Assembly: GCA_021780105.1 (NCBI GenBank)
Contig: JAJXZJ010000023.1
Span: 62,001-126,000, forward strand
From: a bacterium
Lineage (GTDB): Bacteria > Verrucomicrobiota > Verrucomicrobiia > Limisphaerales > J093
DNA: 64,000 nt
Direction: 5' to 3'
The notes below the pieces were generated by a model that made no database searches, was not told where the DNA came from, and was given only the letters and a program-made list of their open reading frames with translations. This document shows, in pieces, positions 46,995 through 63,942 of this stretch. Position 1 is the first letter of the stretch. Every line of letters begins with the position of its first letter. The position numbers and the translations under genes are program-made.

Positions 46995-49295
46995 ATGCCA
47001 GAAAAAATAACGGTTCCCATCGGGACCAACCCCATCCACATCGAAACCGGCCTCCTCGCCAAACAGGCGGACGGCTCGGTCACCGTCCAACTCGGCGAAA
47101 CCATTGTCATCGTGGCCGCTGTGGCCGCCACCAAAGCCAAAGAGGGGCAGTCCTTCTTCCCGCTTACGGTGGATTATCGCGAGAAGGCCGCGTCGGCGGG
47201 CAAGTTCCCCGGCGGTTATTTCAAGCGCGAAGGCCGTCCGACGGAAAAGGAAATCCTGACCTGCCGCATGATTGACCGGCCCATCCGGCCACTCTTCCCC
47301 AAGGGCTGGTTCAACGAAGTCCAGGTGCAAAGCATCCTGCTCAGCGCCGACGGCGAGAACGACCCGGACATCCTGGCGATCAACGGCGCTTCCGCAGCGC
47401 TGATGGTCAGCGACATCCCCTGGGCCGGCCCGCTCGGCGCCGTCCGCATCGGCCGCATCAAGGGCCAGTTGATTGCGAATCCGACGCACCCCCAGTTGCA
47501 GGAGAGCGACCTTGATCTCGTTTACGTCGGCAGTGAAACCGAACTCGTGATGTTCGAAGGTTCCGCCAACGAGATCCCCGAGGCGGATTTCATCGCCGCC
47601 TTGAGTTTCGGCCACGCCAGCATCCAGCCGATCATCAGCGCCCAGAAGGAACTGGCGGCCAAGGCGGGCAAGCCCAAGCGCCAGATCAGCCCGCACACGG
47701 TGCCGGACGAAATCCTCAGCGAGGCGAAGGCGCTCGCCGGCGACCGCACCATCCCGGCGTTGCTCACGCCCGGCAAACTCGCCCGTGAAGCCGCCTGCCA
47801 GGCCATCGCCGACGAGGTGGGCGCCAAGTTGGTGGAGAAATTCGGCGCGGACAAGGTGACGCCATTCGTGGTGGAAAGCGCGTTCGACCACATCCAGGAG
47901 GAAGCCGTGCGCAGCTTGATCCTCGATCAAGGGAAGCGGCTCGACGGCCGGAGCTACGACGATCTTCGTCCGATCTCCAGCAGCGTCGGCCTGCTGCCCC
48001 GCGCCCACGGCTCGGCCTTGTTCACCCGCGGCGAAACCCAGGCGATCGCACTGGTCACGCTGGGCACCACCGCCGACGCGCAGGAACTCGATTCCTACGC
48101 CGGCGGCGACACCGAGAAGCGCTTCATCCTGCACTACAATTTCCCGAACTTCTCCGTCGGAGAAACCGGCCGCATCAGCGGACCGGGCCGACGGGAAATT
48201 GGTCACGGCGCGCTGGCCGAGCGTTCCATCGAGCCGATGGTTCCGCTCAAGGAATTTCCTTACGCTGTCCGCGTGACCAGCGAGATCATGGAGTCGAATG
48301 GTTCGTCCTCGATGGCCACGGTCTGCGGCGGCACGTTGGCGTTAATGGACGCCGGTGTCCCGCTCATCCGGCCGGTTGCCGGCATCAGCGTCGGTCTATG
48401 CACCGAATACGGTGCCAGCGGCGCGATCGCCCGTTACCGTCTCCTTACCGACATCATCGGCTGGGAGGATCATTTCTGCGACATGGATTGCAAGATCGCC
48501 GGCACCGAAAAGGGCATCACCGGCTTTCAACTCGACCTCAAGCTCAAGGGACTGCCGCTGCACCTGATGGCCGAGGCAGTCGAAAAGGCGCGCCTGGCCC
48601 GTCTGCACATCCTCAAGCTCATGGCCGCCACCATCGCCGAGCCGCGCAAGGAACTGAGCAAATACGCGCCGCGCATCCTGACGATCAAGATCAATCCGGA
48701 GAAGATCGGCGCCCTCATCGGCCCCGGCGGCAAGAACATCAAGCGCATCGTGGATGAGTCCGGCTGCGAGATCAACATCGAGGACGACGGCACGGTGCAA
48801 GTCTATTCCACCTCCGCCGAAGGCATGGCGGTGGCCCGGCGCGAAATCGAAGGCATGACCGCCGAGATCGAGGTCGGCAAGATTTACCGCGGCCGCGTCG
48901 TCACCATCAAGGAATTCGGCTGCTTCGTCGAAGTCTTCCCCGGCCAGGACGGCCTGGTTCACATCAGCGAACTGGCCAACTTCCGCGTCAAGCAGACCGA
49001 GGACATCGTCAAGCTCGGCGATGAAATCCTGGTCAAATGCCTCGGCGTGGATGAAAAAGGCCGGGTCCGCCTCTCGCGCAAAGCCGCCATGGAAGAGCGC
49101 GACCGGCAGGAAAATCCGGACAGAGCGCCGGCCGCCGAAGGCGAGCCATCGGCCCAGCCAGCCGACGGCGCGCGGCCGGAGTCGGAGCGCCCGCCCGAAG
49201 GCGAACGCCGGCCCGAAGGCGAACGCCGACCGGAACGCGAACGCGGAGATCGTGACCGTCCTCGCGGCGGCCGGCACCATCGCGACCGCCGGTAA
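46995..49295 (+). CDS. pnp: polyribonucleotide nucleotidyltransferase (PNPase)
   Basis: RNase PH domains, KH ([28 protein letters not shown]) and S1 ([34 protein letters not shown]); rpsO-pnp synteny. Confidence 0.98.
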
Positions 49296-49314: not shown

Positions 49315-49346
49315 GGGCGGAGCCGGAAGGCTCCGCCCTTTTTTTT
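49315..49346 (+). terminator. Rho-independent terminator of the rpsO-pnp unit
   Basis: GGGCGGAGCC-ggaa-GGCTCCGCCC followed by TTTTTTTT. Confidence 0.95.
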
Positions 49347-58596: not shown

Positions 58597-61041
58597 TCAC
58601 CGCGAAGTCGTCGGCTGGATCGTGTAGCGCTCGCCTTTGCGCGTCGGGAATACCACGACATCGGATTCCGGATGCTGGACTTCAAGTTTTTCCCGCCCGG
58701 AAACCACGACCGCACCCGGCGCGTGCAGCCGGCAGGGATTGCCGTTGAGTGAAGCGATCGTGGCCGACACGAGTTGGCCGTCGTGCCATGCCATATCCAC
58801 CGTGAATCCGCCGCGGGCGCGGAGGCCGGTGACGCTACCGTCGCGCCAGGCGTGAGGCAGCGCGGGCAGCAGGTGGACTTCGCCGGCCTGGCTTTGAAGC
58901 AGCATCTCCGCGATGCCGGCCGCGCCGCCAAAGTTGCCGTCAATCTGAAACGGTGGGTGCGCGCAGAACAGGTTCGCATACACGCCGCCACCGCCGTCGT
59001 AACGGAAGCCTTGCGTCTCGACGACGTGAATCAGGTTGCGGACAAGTTTCAGCGCATGGTCGCCGTCCTGGAGCCGCGCCCAGAAGTTGATCTTCCATGC
59101 CATGGACCAGCCGGTGCCGCCGTCGCCACGGACTTCCAGCGATTTCTTCGCGGCGGCGAACAGCGCCGGCGTCTGTGGCGTGATTTGGTGGCCGGGATGC
59201 AACGCGAACAGGTGGGAAACGTGGCGGTGGTGCGGGTCGGTTTCGCCAAACTCCTGCGCCCATTCCATCAGCCGGCCGTCGTGAGCGATTTGCGGGCCGA
59301 GCAATTTCGCCCGCGCGTCGGCGACCCGCCGGGTGAAATCATCTTGTTCCCCGAGTTCGTGCGCGGCGGCGAGCACGTTGCCGAACAAATCCCAGATGAT
59401 TTCCTGTTCCATCGCCGGCCCCATGCTGAGCGAAGCACGCTGGCCGTCCGGAGCGATAAAGGTGTTCTCCGGTGAGTTCGCGGGCCCGGACACGAGCTTG
59501 CCGGTTTTCGGGTCCGGCACCAGCCAGTCGAGGTAAAATTCCGCCGACTGCTTCATCACCGGATAGGCCCGGCGCAGATACGCGCGGTCGCCGCCGAAGG
59601 CGTAGTGCTCCCACAAATCCTGGCAAAGCCACGCGCCAGCCGCCGGGAACAAGCCCCAGCCGGGCGATTCGCCCGGCGAAGTGAAGCCCCACGGATTCGA
59701 GATCGTGTGGACGCACCAGCCGTGCGCGCCGTAATGCACCCGCGCCGTTTTGGCGCCGGGAACGGCGAGCGACTCGATGAATTCCAAGAACGGCTCGTGA
59801 CACTCGGCGAGGTTTGCGACCTCGGAAGGCCAGTAGTTCATCTGGTCGTTGATGTTGTGGTGATAATCGCAATTCCACGGCGTCTGCGTTCCGTCCGCCC
59901 ACAGGCCCTGTAAATTCGCCGGCAGACTGCCAGGCCGCGAACTGCTGATGAGCAGGTAGCGGCCGAATTGAAAATAGAGTGCGATCAGCGCCGGATCCTC
60001 ACCGCCGCGGCGAAATGCCTCCAGCCGCTCGTCGGTGGGCAGACTGGCGGCGTCCGTGACACCCAGGTCCAGTTGCACGCGGCGGAACAACCGCTGGTGA
60101 TCGGCGAGTTGCGCGGCCCGCAGCCGATCGGGCGATTGGCCGAGGGCCGGGTGGAGTTGGGCCGCCGTCACGGCTTCGGGGTCGCCCTTGCGATACGTCG
60201 GCGGTTGCGGCCAGTAATCGGTGGCTGCCGCCAGCACCAGCCGGGCGGATGTCGCCGCTTCCACTCGCAGTGAACTGGCGTTCGCGCTGATTTTGCCGCC
60301 TGTCGCCACGGCGTGCAAACGCGCGGCGAACTTCAGACCGTTGGCGGCCTGGCCGTCGAACATCTGGCCCGCCAGGAGCAGTTCGTTGTTTGTAACTGCT
60401 TTCACCACGCCGGTTTCCGGCCGGGACAGGCTGGCGGTGAAATTGAGTTTGCCGGGCCGGTCGCAGTCAATTTCAACGACCAGCACCTGGTCCGGAAAGC
60501 TGGCGAACACACGACGGGTGAAGGCGACGCCACCGGCCTTGAACCGCGTTGTGGCCGTGGCGGTGTCGAGGTCCAGTTCCCGCCGGTAATCGGTGACGTC
60601 GTTGGTGGCGATGCCGTCGAACGCCAGGCGCAAGTCGCCCAGCGTCTGATAGCAGCCATAAGGCACTTTGCTGCCGTTGCCTGACCCGGAGCCCGCGCCG
60701 CGGCAGATCAGCGTTTTGGCGGCGAGGCGGTCGGCCTCCTCGTATTTGCCGGCCCAAAGCAGGCGGCGAATTTCCGGCAACGCGGCGAACGCGGCGGGAT
60801 TGTCCGCGTCCTGCGGTCCACCGGACCAGAGCGAGTCCTCGTTCAATTGCAGCCGCTCGGAGGCGATGCCGCCGAAGACCATCGCGCCGAGGCGGCCATT
60901 GCCGACCGGCAACGCTTCCGTCCACTTTTGCGCCGGCTGGCGATACCACAGGACGAGCGGCGTGGCGGCACGAACCGGCCGCGCGGCGAGGACCGCCATC
61001 ACCACCAGCGCGAGCATGAATCGGGAGCAAACGGAGTTCAT
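58597..61041 (-). CDS. GH95-family alpha-L-fucosidase
   Basis: [54 protein letters not shown]...[46 protein letters not shown]. Confidence 0.93.
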
Positions 61042-61202: not shown

Positions 61203-61345
61203 CACAAAAAGGCGCGCAGCCCTTGGACTGCGCGCCAGCCGAAAGCTTGGATTGACCGGGAAACTATGCTTTACGGATCGGGTAACGATAACCGCAAAAA
61301 GCGGCCAATCCAAGCCAAAGAACCTAAGAAACCCTAACACTCACT
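61203..61345 (-). ncRNA. candidate structured RNA (attenuator, riboswitch or terminated sRNA) of unknown class
   Basis: 10-bp perfect closing helix GCTTGGATTG/CAATCCAAGC (61306-61315 with 61245-61254), internal CCGC-UUUUU-GCGG hairpin, then a 9-bp GC terminator hairpin and U5; 5' end approximate. Confidence 0.6.
61206..61236 (-). terminator. Rho-independent terminator hairpin
   Basis: Minus strand GGCGCGCAG-tccaaggg-CTGCGCGCC followed by TTTTT. Confidence 0.85.
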
Positions 61346-61471: not shown

Positions 61472-63829
61472 TCAGGTCTGCGGCCCCCGTTTCCGGGCTA
61501 GAATCACATCGCGTCCGGTGAGATACAGCAACGAAACCAGCCCCAGAAACGGCAGCAGCGCGAGGACGTTCGACCACGGGCCTTCGGTGAAGGGGTCTTT
61601 CGCCGCCAGGGCGTTGACGTGTTCGTTGAACTGGGCCAACCAGCCACGGAAGCCGCCCGCGTGGCCGTCCGCCAGGCCGGTGATGATGGCGATCAGGATG
61701 CCGGCAATCGCCCCGCCGGCGATATAGCCGGAGGCGAGCAGCACGCCGGAGCTTTTGTCGCTCTCGGCGACGAGCTGCTTTTCGGTGAGATTCGCCGCGC
61801 GGTATTTCTTGCGCAGGTAAAGGTCCACCAGCCAGCGGACCAGGCCGCCAATAAAGACCGGCGTGGACGACGACAGCGGCAGATAAACGCCCACGGCGAA
61901 GGCAAGCGACGGGAGAAGCGACATTTCCAGCACGACGACGATCATCATGCCCAGCAGGACAAAGCCCCACGGCAACTGCTGGTTCAAAATGCCTTTGATG
62001 ATGTAGGACATCAGCGTGGCCTGGGGCGGATGAAATTTCTCCACCTGCGTGCCGTCCGGCCGGGTGCGATAGGCGCCGTTGATGCCGGGGTCCACCAGGT
62101 AAACCGGCGTGCCGGCGGCATCCACCAGGTAACGGCCGGGCGGGCCGATCTTCTCGTCGGTGTTGTGCCAGACGAGGTATTCGTGCGCGTCGTCGGAGGC
62201 CTGCGGCCCGTGCAGGGTGTCGTGCTGGGTCAGTTTCGTGGGATCAACGCGCATCGCCACCGGGAAATCGGCGTTGCCCTTGACCGCGACATAGACGGTG
62301 GCGCCGTCGTTCAACCGCATCAGCACCGGCCCAAGCACCAGCGCCGACCCAAGTGCGCCGATCAGCAACGCGATTTGCTGCGCCCGCGGCGTTGAACCCA
62401 CCAGGAAACCCGTCTTCAAATCCTGCGACGTCGTGCCGCCGTTCGACGCCGCGATGCAGACAATGCCGCCGACCGACAGCGCGGTGACGTAGTAATTGCT
62501 GCTGGTCCAGTGAAGAATCAAAAAAATCAGGCACGTCAACAGCAGCGTGGCGACCGTCATGCCGGAAATCGGGTTCGACGAGGAGCCGATTTCACCTGTC
62601 AATCGTGACGAGACCGTGACGAAAATGAAGCCGCACACGACGATCAAGACCGCGCCGAGCAGGTTCATCTGGAGCGGTTTCGCGGAAACAATCGCCACCA
62701 GCAACGCCACGATGCCCAGGAGGACGAACGTCATCGGCAGGTCGTTGTCCGTGCGTGCCTTGGCGGCCGCGCCGGTGGCCGCGCCGCGCAGGTCTTTCAA
62801 CCCTTCCTTGAACCCGTGCCAGATGGTCGGCAACGCGCGCAACACGCTCAACACGCCGGCCGCGGCCACCGCGCCGGCGCCGACATACAGAAGATACGCG
62901 CGGCGCACGTCATCCGGTGTCATGTCGGCGATCGGTATCGTGCCCGGCGAAAGTGGTTGCGTGAGGTGCTCGCCAAACAGTTTGATCATCGGCACAAAGA
63001 CGAGATACGAGAGCGCGCCGCCGGCACACATGATCGAGGCGATGCGCGGGCCGATGATGTAACCCACGCCGAGCAGTTCCGGCGAAATTTCGGCCGAGAG
63101 CGAACCGCCCTTCAGCGGCGCGCCGAACACTTTTTCCGGCACGTCCTTCCACAGCCGCAGCGCGGCCATCATCGTCTTGTAAACCAGACCGATGCCGAAG
63201 CCGATGAAGATGGTGGCCGGATTGGATTCGGCCAGCACGCCGGCGGCGTTCGCGGCCACCGCTTCCTGACGCGCGGCCGCCGAGGAGTGGGCTTTCGACT
63301 CCGCGGAGGCGCCGGCCTTGAGCACCTCGGCGCACGCCGTGCCTTCGGGGTATTTCAACGTGCCGTGCTGCGCGACAATCAACGCCCGCCGCAGTGGAAT
63401 CATCATCAACACGCCCAGCAGCCCGCCCAGCACGGCCACCAGCATCACCCGCGTCAACTCCAGATCGAAGCCGAGAATCATGATCGCCGGCATCGTCGCG
63501 CCGAGGCCGAAGGCGATGGATTCGCCCGCCGAGCCGGCGGTTTGCACGATGTTATTCTCCAGGATCGTGGTTTCCCGCGCGCCGAATTTGCGCGCCAGCT
63601 TGAACAGCGTGATCGCGATCACCGCCACGGGAATCGAGGCGCTCACGGTCAGGCCGACCTTCAGCACGAGATAAAGCGATGACGCACCGAACACCATGCC
63701 CAACAGCGTGCCGACGATGACTGGCACGATGGACAGCTCCGGCAGCCGGGCTTCGGTGGGAATATAGGGTTGGAAAGGTGCGGACGGCGTGCCGCCGGAC
63801 GGCGGTTTCGGTTCGGTATGCGCGCTCAT
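61472..63829 (-). CDS. OPT-family oligopeptide transporter
   Basis: RLPELSIVPVIVGTLLGMVFGASSLYLVLKVGLTVSASIPVAVIAITLFK...ENNIVQTAGSAGESIAFGLGATMPAI...KYPEGTACAEVLKAG; GTG alternative start at 63835. Confidence 0.93.
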   Translation of the reverse strand: MSAHTEPKPPSGGTPSAPFQPYIPTEARLPELSIVPVIVGTLLGMVFGASSLYLVLKVGLTVSASIPVAVIAITLFKLARKFGARETTILENNIVQTAGSAGESIAFGLGATMPAIMILGFDLELTRVMLVAVLGGLLGVLMMIPLRRALIVAQHGTLKYPEGTACAEVLKAGASAESKAHSSAAARQEAVAANAAGVLAESNPATIFIGFGIGLVYKTMMAALRLWKDVPEKVFGAPLKGGSLSAEISPELLGVGYIIGPRIASIMCAGGALSYLVFVPMIKLFGEHLTQPLSPGTIPIADMTPDDVRRAYLLYVGAGAVAAAGVLSVLRALPTIWHGFKEGLKDLRGAATGAAAKARTDNDLPMTFVLLGIVALLVAIVSAKPLQMNLLGAVLIVVCGFIFVTVSSRLTGEIGSSSNPISGMTVATLLLTCLIFLILHWTSSNYYVTALSVGGIVCIAASNGGTTSQDLKTGFLVGSTPRAQQIALLIGALGSALVLGPVLMRLNDGATVYVAVKGNADFPVAMRVDPTKLTQHDTLHGPQASDDAHEYLVWHNTDEKIGPPGRYLVDAAGTPVYLVDPGINGAYRTRPDGTQVEKFHPPQATLMSYIIKGILNQQLPWGFVLLGMMIVVVLEMSLLPSLAFAVGVYLPLSSSTPVFIGGLVRWLVDLYLRKKYRAANLTEKQLVAESDKSSGVLLASGYIAGGAIAGILIAIITGLADGHAGGFRGWLAQFNEHVNALAAKDPFTEGPWSNVLALLPFLGLVSLLYLTGRDVILARKRGPQT

Positions 63830-63942
63830 GGCCACTTGTTGGCCGCGCAGGCTAAACCGAAGTCGAGGTGCGACGCCAGTTGAATGTCGGCCAGCCGGTT
63901 TGGTTTTGACTTCGCCGGCCGCGACGGTTCACTGAAGGCATC

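Follow-up and report, generated by a model that had tools for sequence, protein, structure and literature searches.

The locus and its surroundings

The window, by which we mean the whole 64,000-nt stretch of a Limisphaerales contig that was analyzed, carries on its minus strand (positions 61316-61206) a small folded RNA of about 75 bases followed by a transcription-stop hairpin. The element lies between the genes of an oligopeptide transporter and a glycoside hydrolase (Table 1). Three segments singled out in a first-pass annotation of the sequence, CUUGGAUUG (61314-61306), CAAUCCAAG (61254-61246) and CAGUCCAAG (61230-61222), were found at these minus-strand coordinates. The terminator hairpin described there is present as well, with a stem of 11 rather than 9 bp. 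The 151-nt leader folds with an energy of -60 kcal/mol versus -44.5 ± 3.8 kcal/mol in shuffled sequences (z = -4.1).

Table 1. Features of the element (window coordinates, minus strand, unless locus L002 is indicated) and of the genes around its two copies
Feature	Position	Strand	Remarks
Upstream gene, OPT-family oligopeptide transporter	61472..63835	minus	PF03169 (E = 9.9e-92), TIGR00733; stop codon ~155 nt before P1
Downstream gene, GH95 glycoside hydrolase	58597..61041	minus	PF22124 (E = 2e-180); ATG ~165 nt past the U-tract
Structured core	61316-61244	minus	73 nt
P1 5' arm, GGCUUGGAUUGGC	61304..61316	minus	closing helix of 13 bp; versus copy 2, compatible changes on both sides (3) or one side (2), 0 broken
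P1 3' arm, GUCAAUCCAAGCU	61244..61256	minus	partner of 61304-61316
P2 5' arm, GCUU	61299..61302	minus	pairs with AAGC (61271-61268); same in both copies
P2 3' arm, AAGC	61268..61271	minus	partner of GCUU
P3 5' arm, UGCGG (copy 2: CUAGG)	61292..61296	minus	with 61276-61272, 3 double compensatory changes in a row; hand-adjusted alignment
P3 3' arm, CCGUA (copy 2: CCUAG)	61272..61276	minus	partner of the P3 5' arm
Apical hairpin AUC-GUUACCC-GAU, conserved loop UUACCC	61277..61289	minus	one base differs between the copies; loop largely unpaired
Conserved 3' internal-loop strand, AUAGUUUCC(C)G	61257..61267	minus	copy 2 differs only by one inserted C
Intrinsic terminator	61206..61236	minus	GGCGCGCAGUCCAAGGGCUGCGCGCC + UUUUU; 11-bp stem, 4-nt loop, U5
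Tandem PEP-CTERM-type proteins flanking copy 2	L002:798-1496, 1849-2580	plus	NCBIfam PEP-CTERM models, matches below cut-off

A good σ70-like promoter was not found just upstream of the element, and no other strong terminator was found between the transporter gene and the element's own. Only two strong intrinsic terminators were detected in the window. The second, at 49315-49345 on the plus strand (10-bp stem, T8), directly follows a gene (46995-49295) that reads as polynucleotide phosphorylase (pnp). Since it ends a pnp-like gene, the terminator of the element could likewise be an ordinary mRNA end. Orthologues of the transporter gene in related genomes have neither the element, nor a comparable terminator, nor a GH95 neighbor within the flanks examined.

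No part of the window reaches the gathering threshold of any Rfam 15 family, which agrees with the earlier remark that the core was not recognized as a known riboswitch class. The best sub-threshold match of the element, to NmsRb (27.3 bits; gathering score, 52), relies mostly on the terminator.

A second copy in the same genome

A whole-genome search retrieved a second copy at positions 71348-71426 of contig C16 (L002:1501-1579) that is 78% identical to the first over the core; no third copy was found in the genome by sequence or model searches. The similarity is confined to the core, where the stretches UUACCCGAU and AAGCAUAGUUU are identical in both copies, and the flanks are dissimilar. 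The tetranucleotide composition of C16 correlates with that of the window at 0.93-0.95, equal to the within-window value, and a binning error is therefore unlikely. The GC content is ca. 0.51 in the core of both copies versus 0.64-0.65 in the surrounding DNA. Matches of copy 2 to Rfam families were at chance level only.

Copy 2 sits between two PEP-CTERM genes, beginning 10 nt past the stop codon of the first and upstream of the second, with no space for a leader promoter of its own outside coding sequence; a promoter-like site is located after its hairpin, in front of the next gene. Both copies are preceded by a same-strand gene and have a terminator-like hairpin downstream, which follows P1 at a spacing of 8 and 11 nt, respectively. 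The hairpin of copy 2 (L002:1591-1611) has a poor U-tract.

Compensatory changes between the copies

The consensus fold of the two copies consists of P1 (13 bp), P2, P3 and a short AUC/GAU stem with the UUACCC loop; the stem inside P1 carries a bulge. Of the 25 pairs of this fold, 6 differ between the copies at both positions and 2 at one position, and all remain able to pair, as judged from two sequences of one genome. In the P3 columns, a small gap was shifted by eye relative to the MAFFT alignment; without this shift, the alignment backs P1 and P2, in which it shows 3 double changes. In 2000 simulations that placed these substitutions at random along the alignment, in either direction, the observed consensus energy was reached 0 times. 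For P1 and the first P2 pair alone, a simple test yielded p ~2e-4 with equal substitution rates and 0.04 with transitions only. Substitutions are commoner in paired columns (14/50) than in unpaired ones (3/25), which is the pattern expected if the fold and the unpaired core were both under selection.

Taken alone, the cores fold with z-scores of -5.4 (copy 1, 73 nt) and -5.6 (copy 2), and the opposite strand folds less well; the G-U pairs of the consensus fold become A-C mismatches when read on that strand. The first-pass annotation had placed a CCGC/GCGG hairpin in the core. This hairpin can form, but at a cost of about 4 kcal/mol relative to GCGG paired with CCGU (4.3 in copy 1; its counterpart in copy 2 is 7.8 worse), and we rejected it: the consensus fold contains the GCGG/CCGU pairing. 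In contrast, the proposal of a structured RNA with a closing helix is borne out by the compensatory changes. The two sequences, both from one genome, very probably represent a genuine structured RNA. Since the fold is kept by paired mutations, the element is probably a real functional RNA, whose function we infer.

Distribution

Covariance-model searches covered 322 genomes of the order (13 of them from the family), 390 from the class and 394 from the phylum and yielded no homologues, the matches being limited to the genome's own two copies. Seven weak model matches, the strongest among them, were checked; each of them overlaps a long reading frame and folds differently. An exact core pattern was found in 0 of 85,488 species genomes and in no IMG/VR viral contig. 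Looser patterns matched 63 loci in genomes and, among viruses, 11, 78 and 24 loci; all of these lacked the fold and are taken as chance matches, and plasmid and phage sequences contained no core-pattern homologue. The pattern scans accept identical letters only, so that a core that had diverged would escape them; filtering was stricter in the model searches that spanned many genomes. None of the relatives searched is from the same genus, so the element may just be restricted to that genus. We found no description of it in the literature.

The proposed on/off switch

The first-pass annotation had read the locus as an OFF-type riboswitch or attenuator in which the closing helix and an antiterminator are mutually exclusive. 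The 9-bp match between the P1 5' arm and the terminator on which this reading was built does exist. Forcing the antiterminator, however, gives -37.2 versus -60.0 kcal/mol for the state with P1 and the terminator; the two energies are not comparable, and the antiterminator state is 22.8 kcal/mol worse since P1 and the terminator are both broken. Dinucleotide shuffles of the leader give a match of 9 or more to the terminator in 3.4% of cases. Copy 2 lacks such a pairing, its longest match of 6 being the usual shuffle value. In the predicted folds, P1 is already whole in every transcript long enough to include the terminator, and no alternative partner sequestering the P1 3' arm was seen. Because of the energy gap, the chance rate, the lack of a match in copy 2 and the non-consensus hairpin, we do not accept the OFF-riboswitch layout; the switch with competing P1 and antiterminator was rejected on the first three of these.

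A transcription-attenuating riboswitch or other cis-regulator, perhaps working in another way, is unlikely; its core would be an aptamer controlling the terminator and hence, in copy 1, the GH95 gene and, in copy 2, a PEP-CTERM gene. In the two copies available, a conserved core sits inside covarying helices, as in an aptamer, with the unpaired core more constant than the helices; this, the short distance from P1 to the hairpin in both copies and the 9-bp pairing of copy 1 speak for such a regulator. On the other hand, besides the failings of that pairing (energy, p = 0.034, absence in copy 2), ~165-237 nt separate the hairpins from the start codons, the hairpin of copy 2 is followed by a promoter-like site, the downstream genes of the two copies are unrelated, and the transporter and GH95 genes are not adjacent in relatives. 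As far as the parts of the reports on terminating and orphan riboswitches available to us go (PMC8632094, PMC11109978), the element resembles these in having a conserved unpaired core in covarying helices and then a terminator, and differs from them in that it has neither a conserved alternative pairing, nor a consistent downstream gene, nor a ligand.

A possible mobile origin or purely cis-acting role

Given the sporadic distribution and the low GC content, a mobile origin is a live alternative. The element would then be a small non-autonomous palindrome (MITE- or REP-like) that is important for the hairpin it forms in single-stranded DNA. Two dispersed copies that share a core and not the flanks, absence from the searched genomes of family, order, class and phylum, and the GC difference all fit, as does the presence of seven Y1-transposase genes in the genome. 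These RAYT-like matches are located on contigs C13, C26, C28, C33 and C34. However, all seven are on contigs other than those of the element, so that neither copy lies beside one; there are only two copies, and no target-site duplication is obvious by eye. Both copies have the same orientation relative to the following terminator-like hairpin, and the RNA strand is favored by the G-U pairs and better folding. We consider this origin improbable.

Similarly improbable is a 3'-UTR structure acting only in cis, which stabilizes the upstream mRNA or binds a protein: the copies do follow stop codons (by 10 nt in copy 2 and ~155 nt in copy 1) and precede terminator-like hairpins, but near-identical loops beside two unrelated genes suggest a shared partner and not simple stabilization.

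A candidate small RNA

Since copy 2 starts 10 nt past a stop codon and both copies precede a terminator-like hairpin, a riboswitch is in our view less likely than a small RNA that stands alone or derives from a 3' UTR; a terminated small RNA, which the first-pass annotation had named as its alternative, fits better than the switch. We estimate at about 0.5 the probability that the element is a genuine structured RNA which, with its C16 paralogue, is most likely a small regulatory RNA. A 3'-UTR-derived or short terminated RNA is also the simplest reading common to both copies, and near-identical loops in two unrelated gene neighborhoods imply that they share a binding partner. We infer that the element is transcribed and processed and acts in trans on targets: it would be freed from the 3' UTR of the gene before it or produced as a short, terminated transcript, P1 and the terminator would shield its ends, and the conserved unpaired stretches, the UUACCC loop and the AUAGUUUCC strand, would be the sites where target mRNAs or a protein bind. 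The terminator such an RNA calls for is strong in copy 1 and in copy 2 is represented by a hairpin with a weak U-tract.

The siblings NmsRa and NmsRb of Neisseria adjoin each other, whereas the copies described here sit on separate contigs. Both systems have a short hairpin, a single-stranded stretch, a GC-rich terminator and two similar copies per genome (RF02877; PMC5362039), but the RF02877 model lacks a P1 closing helix. In the available part of a review of 3'-UTR-derived bacterial small RNAs (PMC7821165), these are likewise found after a stop codon, with the terminator as the 3' end, two features that we read here from sequence.

Several observations count against the small RNA reading. 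A conserved small RNA would not usually be missing from all the relatives searched; the comparison involves two sequences of one genome and a hand-adjusted P3 alignment; no good σ70-like promoter was found just upstream of copy 1, and the U-tract of copy 2 is poor. More speculatively, the element may belong to a new class of ligand- or protein-sensing RNAs in a poorly sampled lineage, in which the UUACCC loop and the AUAGUUUCC internal loop steer unrelated surface and carbohydrate genes from untranslated regions, an idea that we regard as doubtful.

The mechanism of the element is not yet surprising as such. Reading a single sequence led to an orphan structured RNA that is backed by compensatory change, beyond folding energy alone. 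Its apparent confinement to one genome indicates that comparative RNA screens needing many homologues can miss lineage-specific RNAs.
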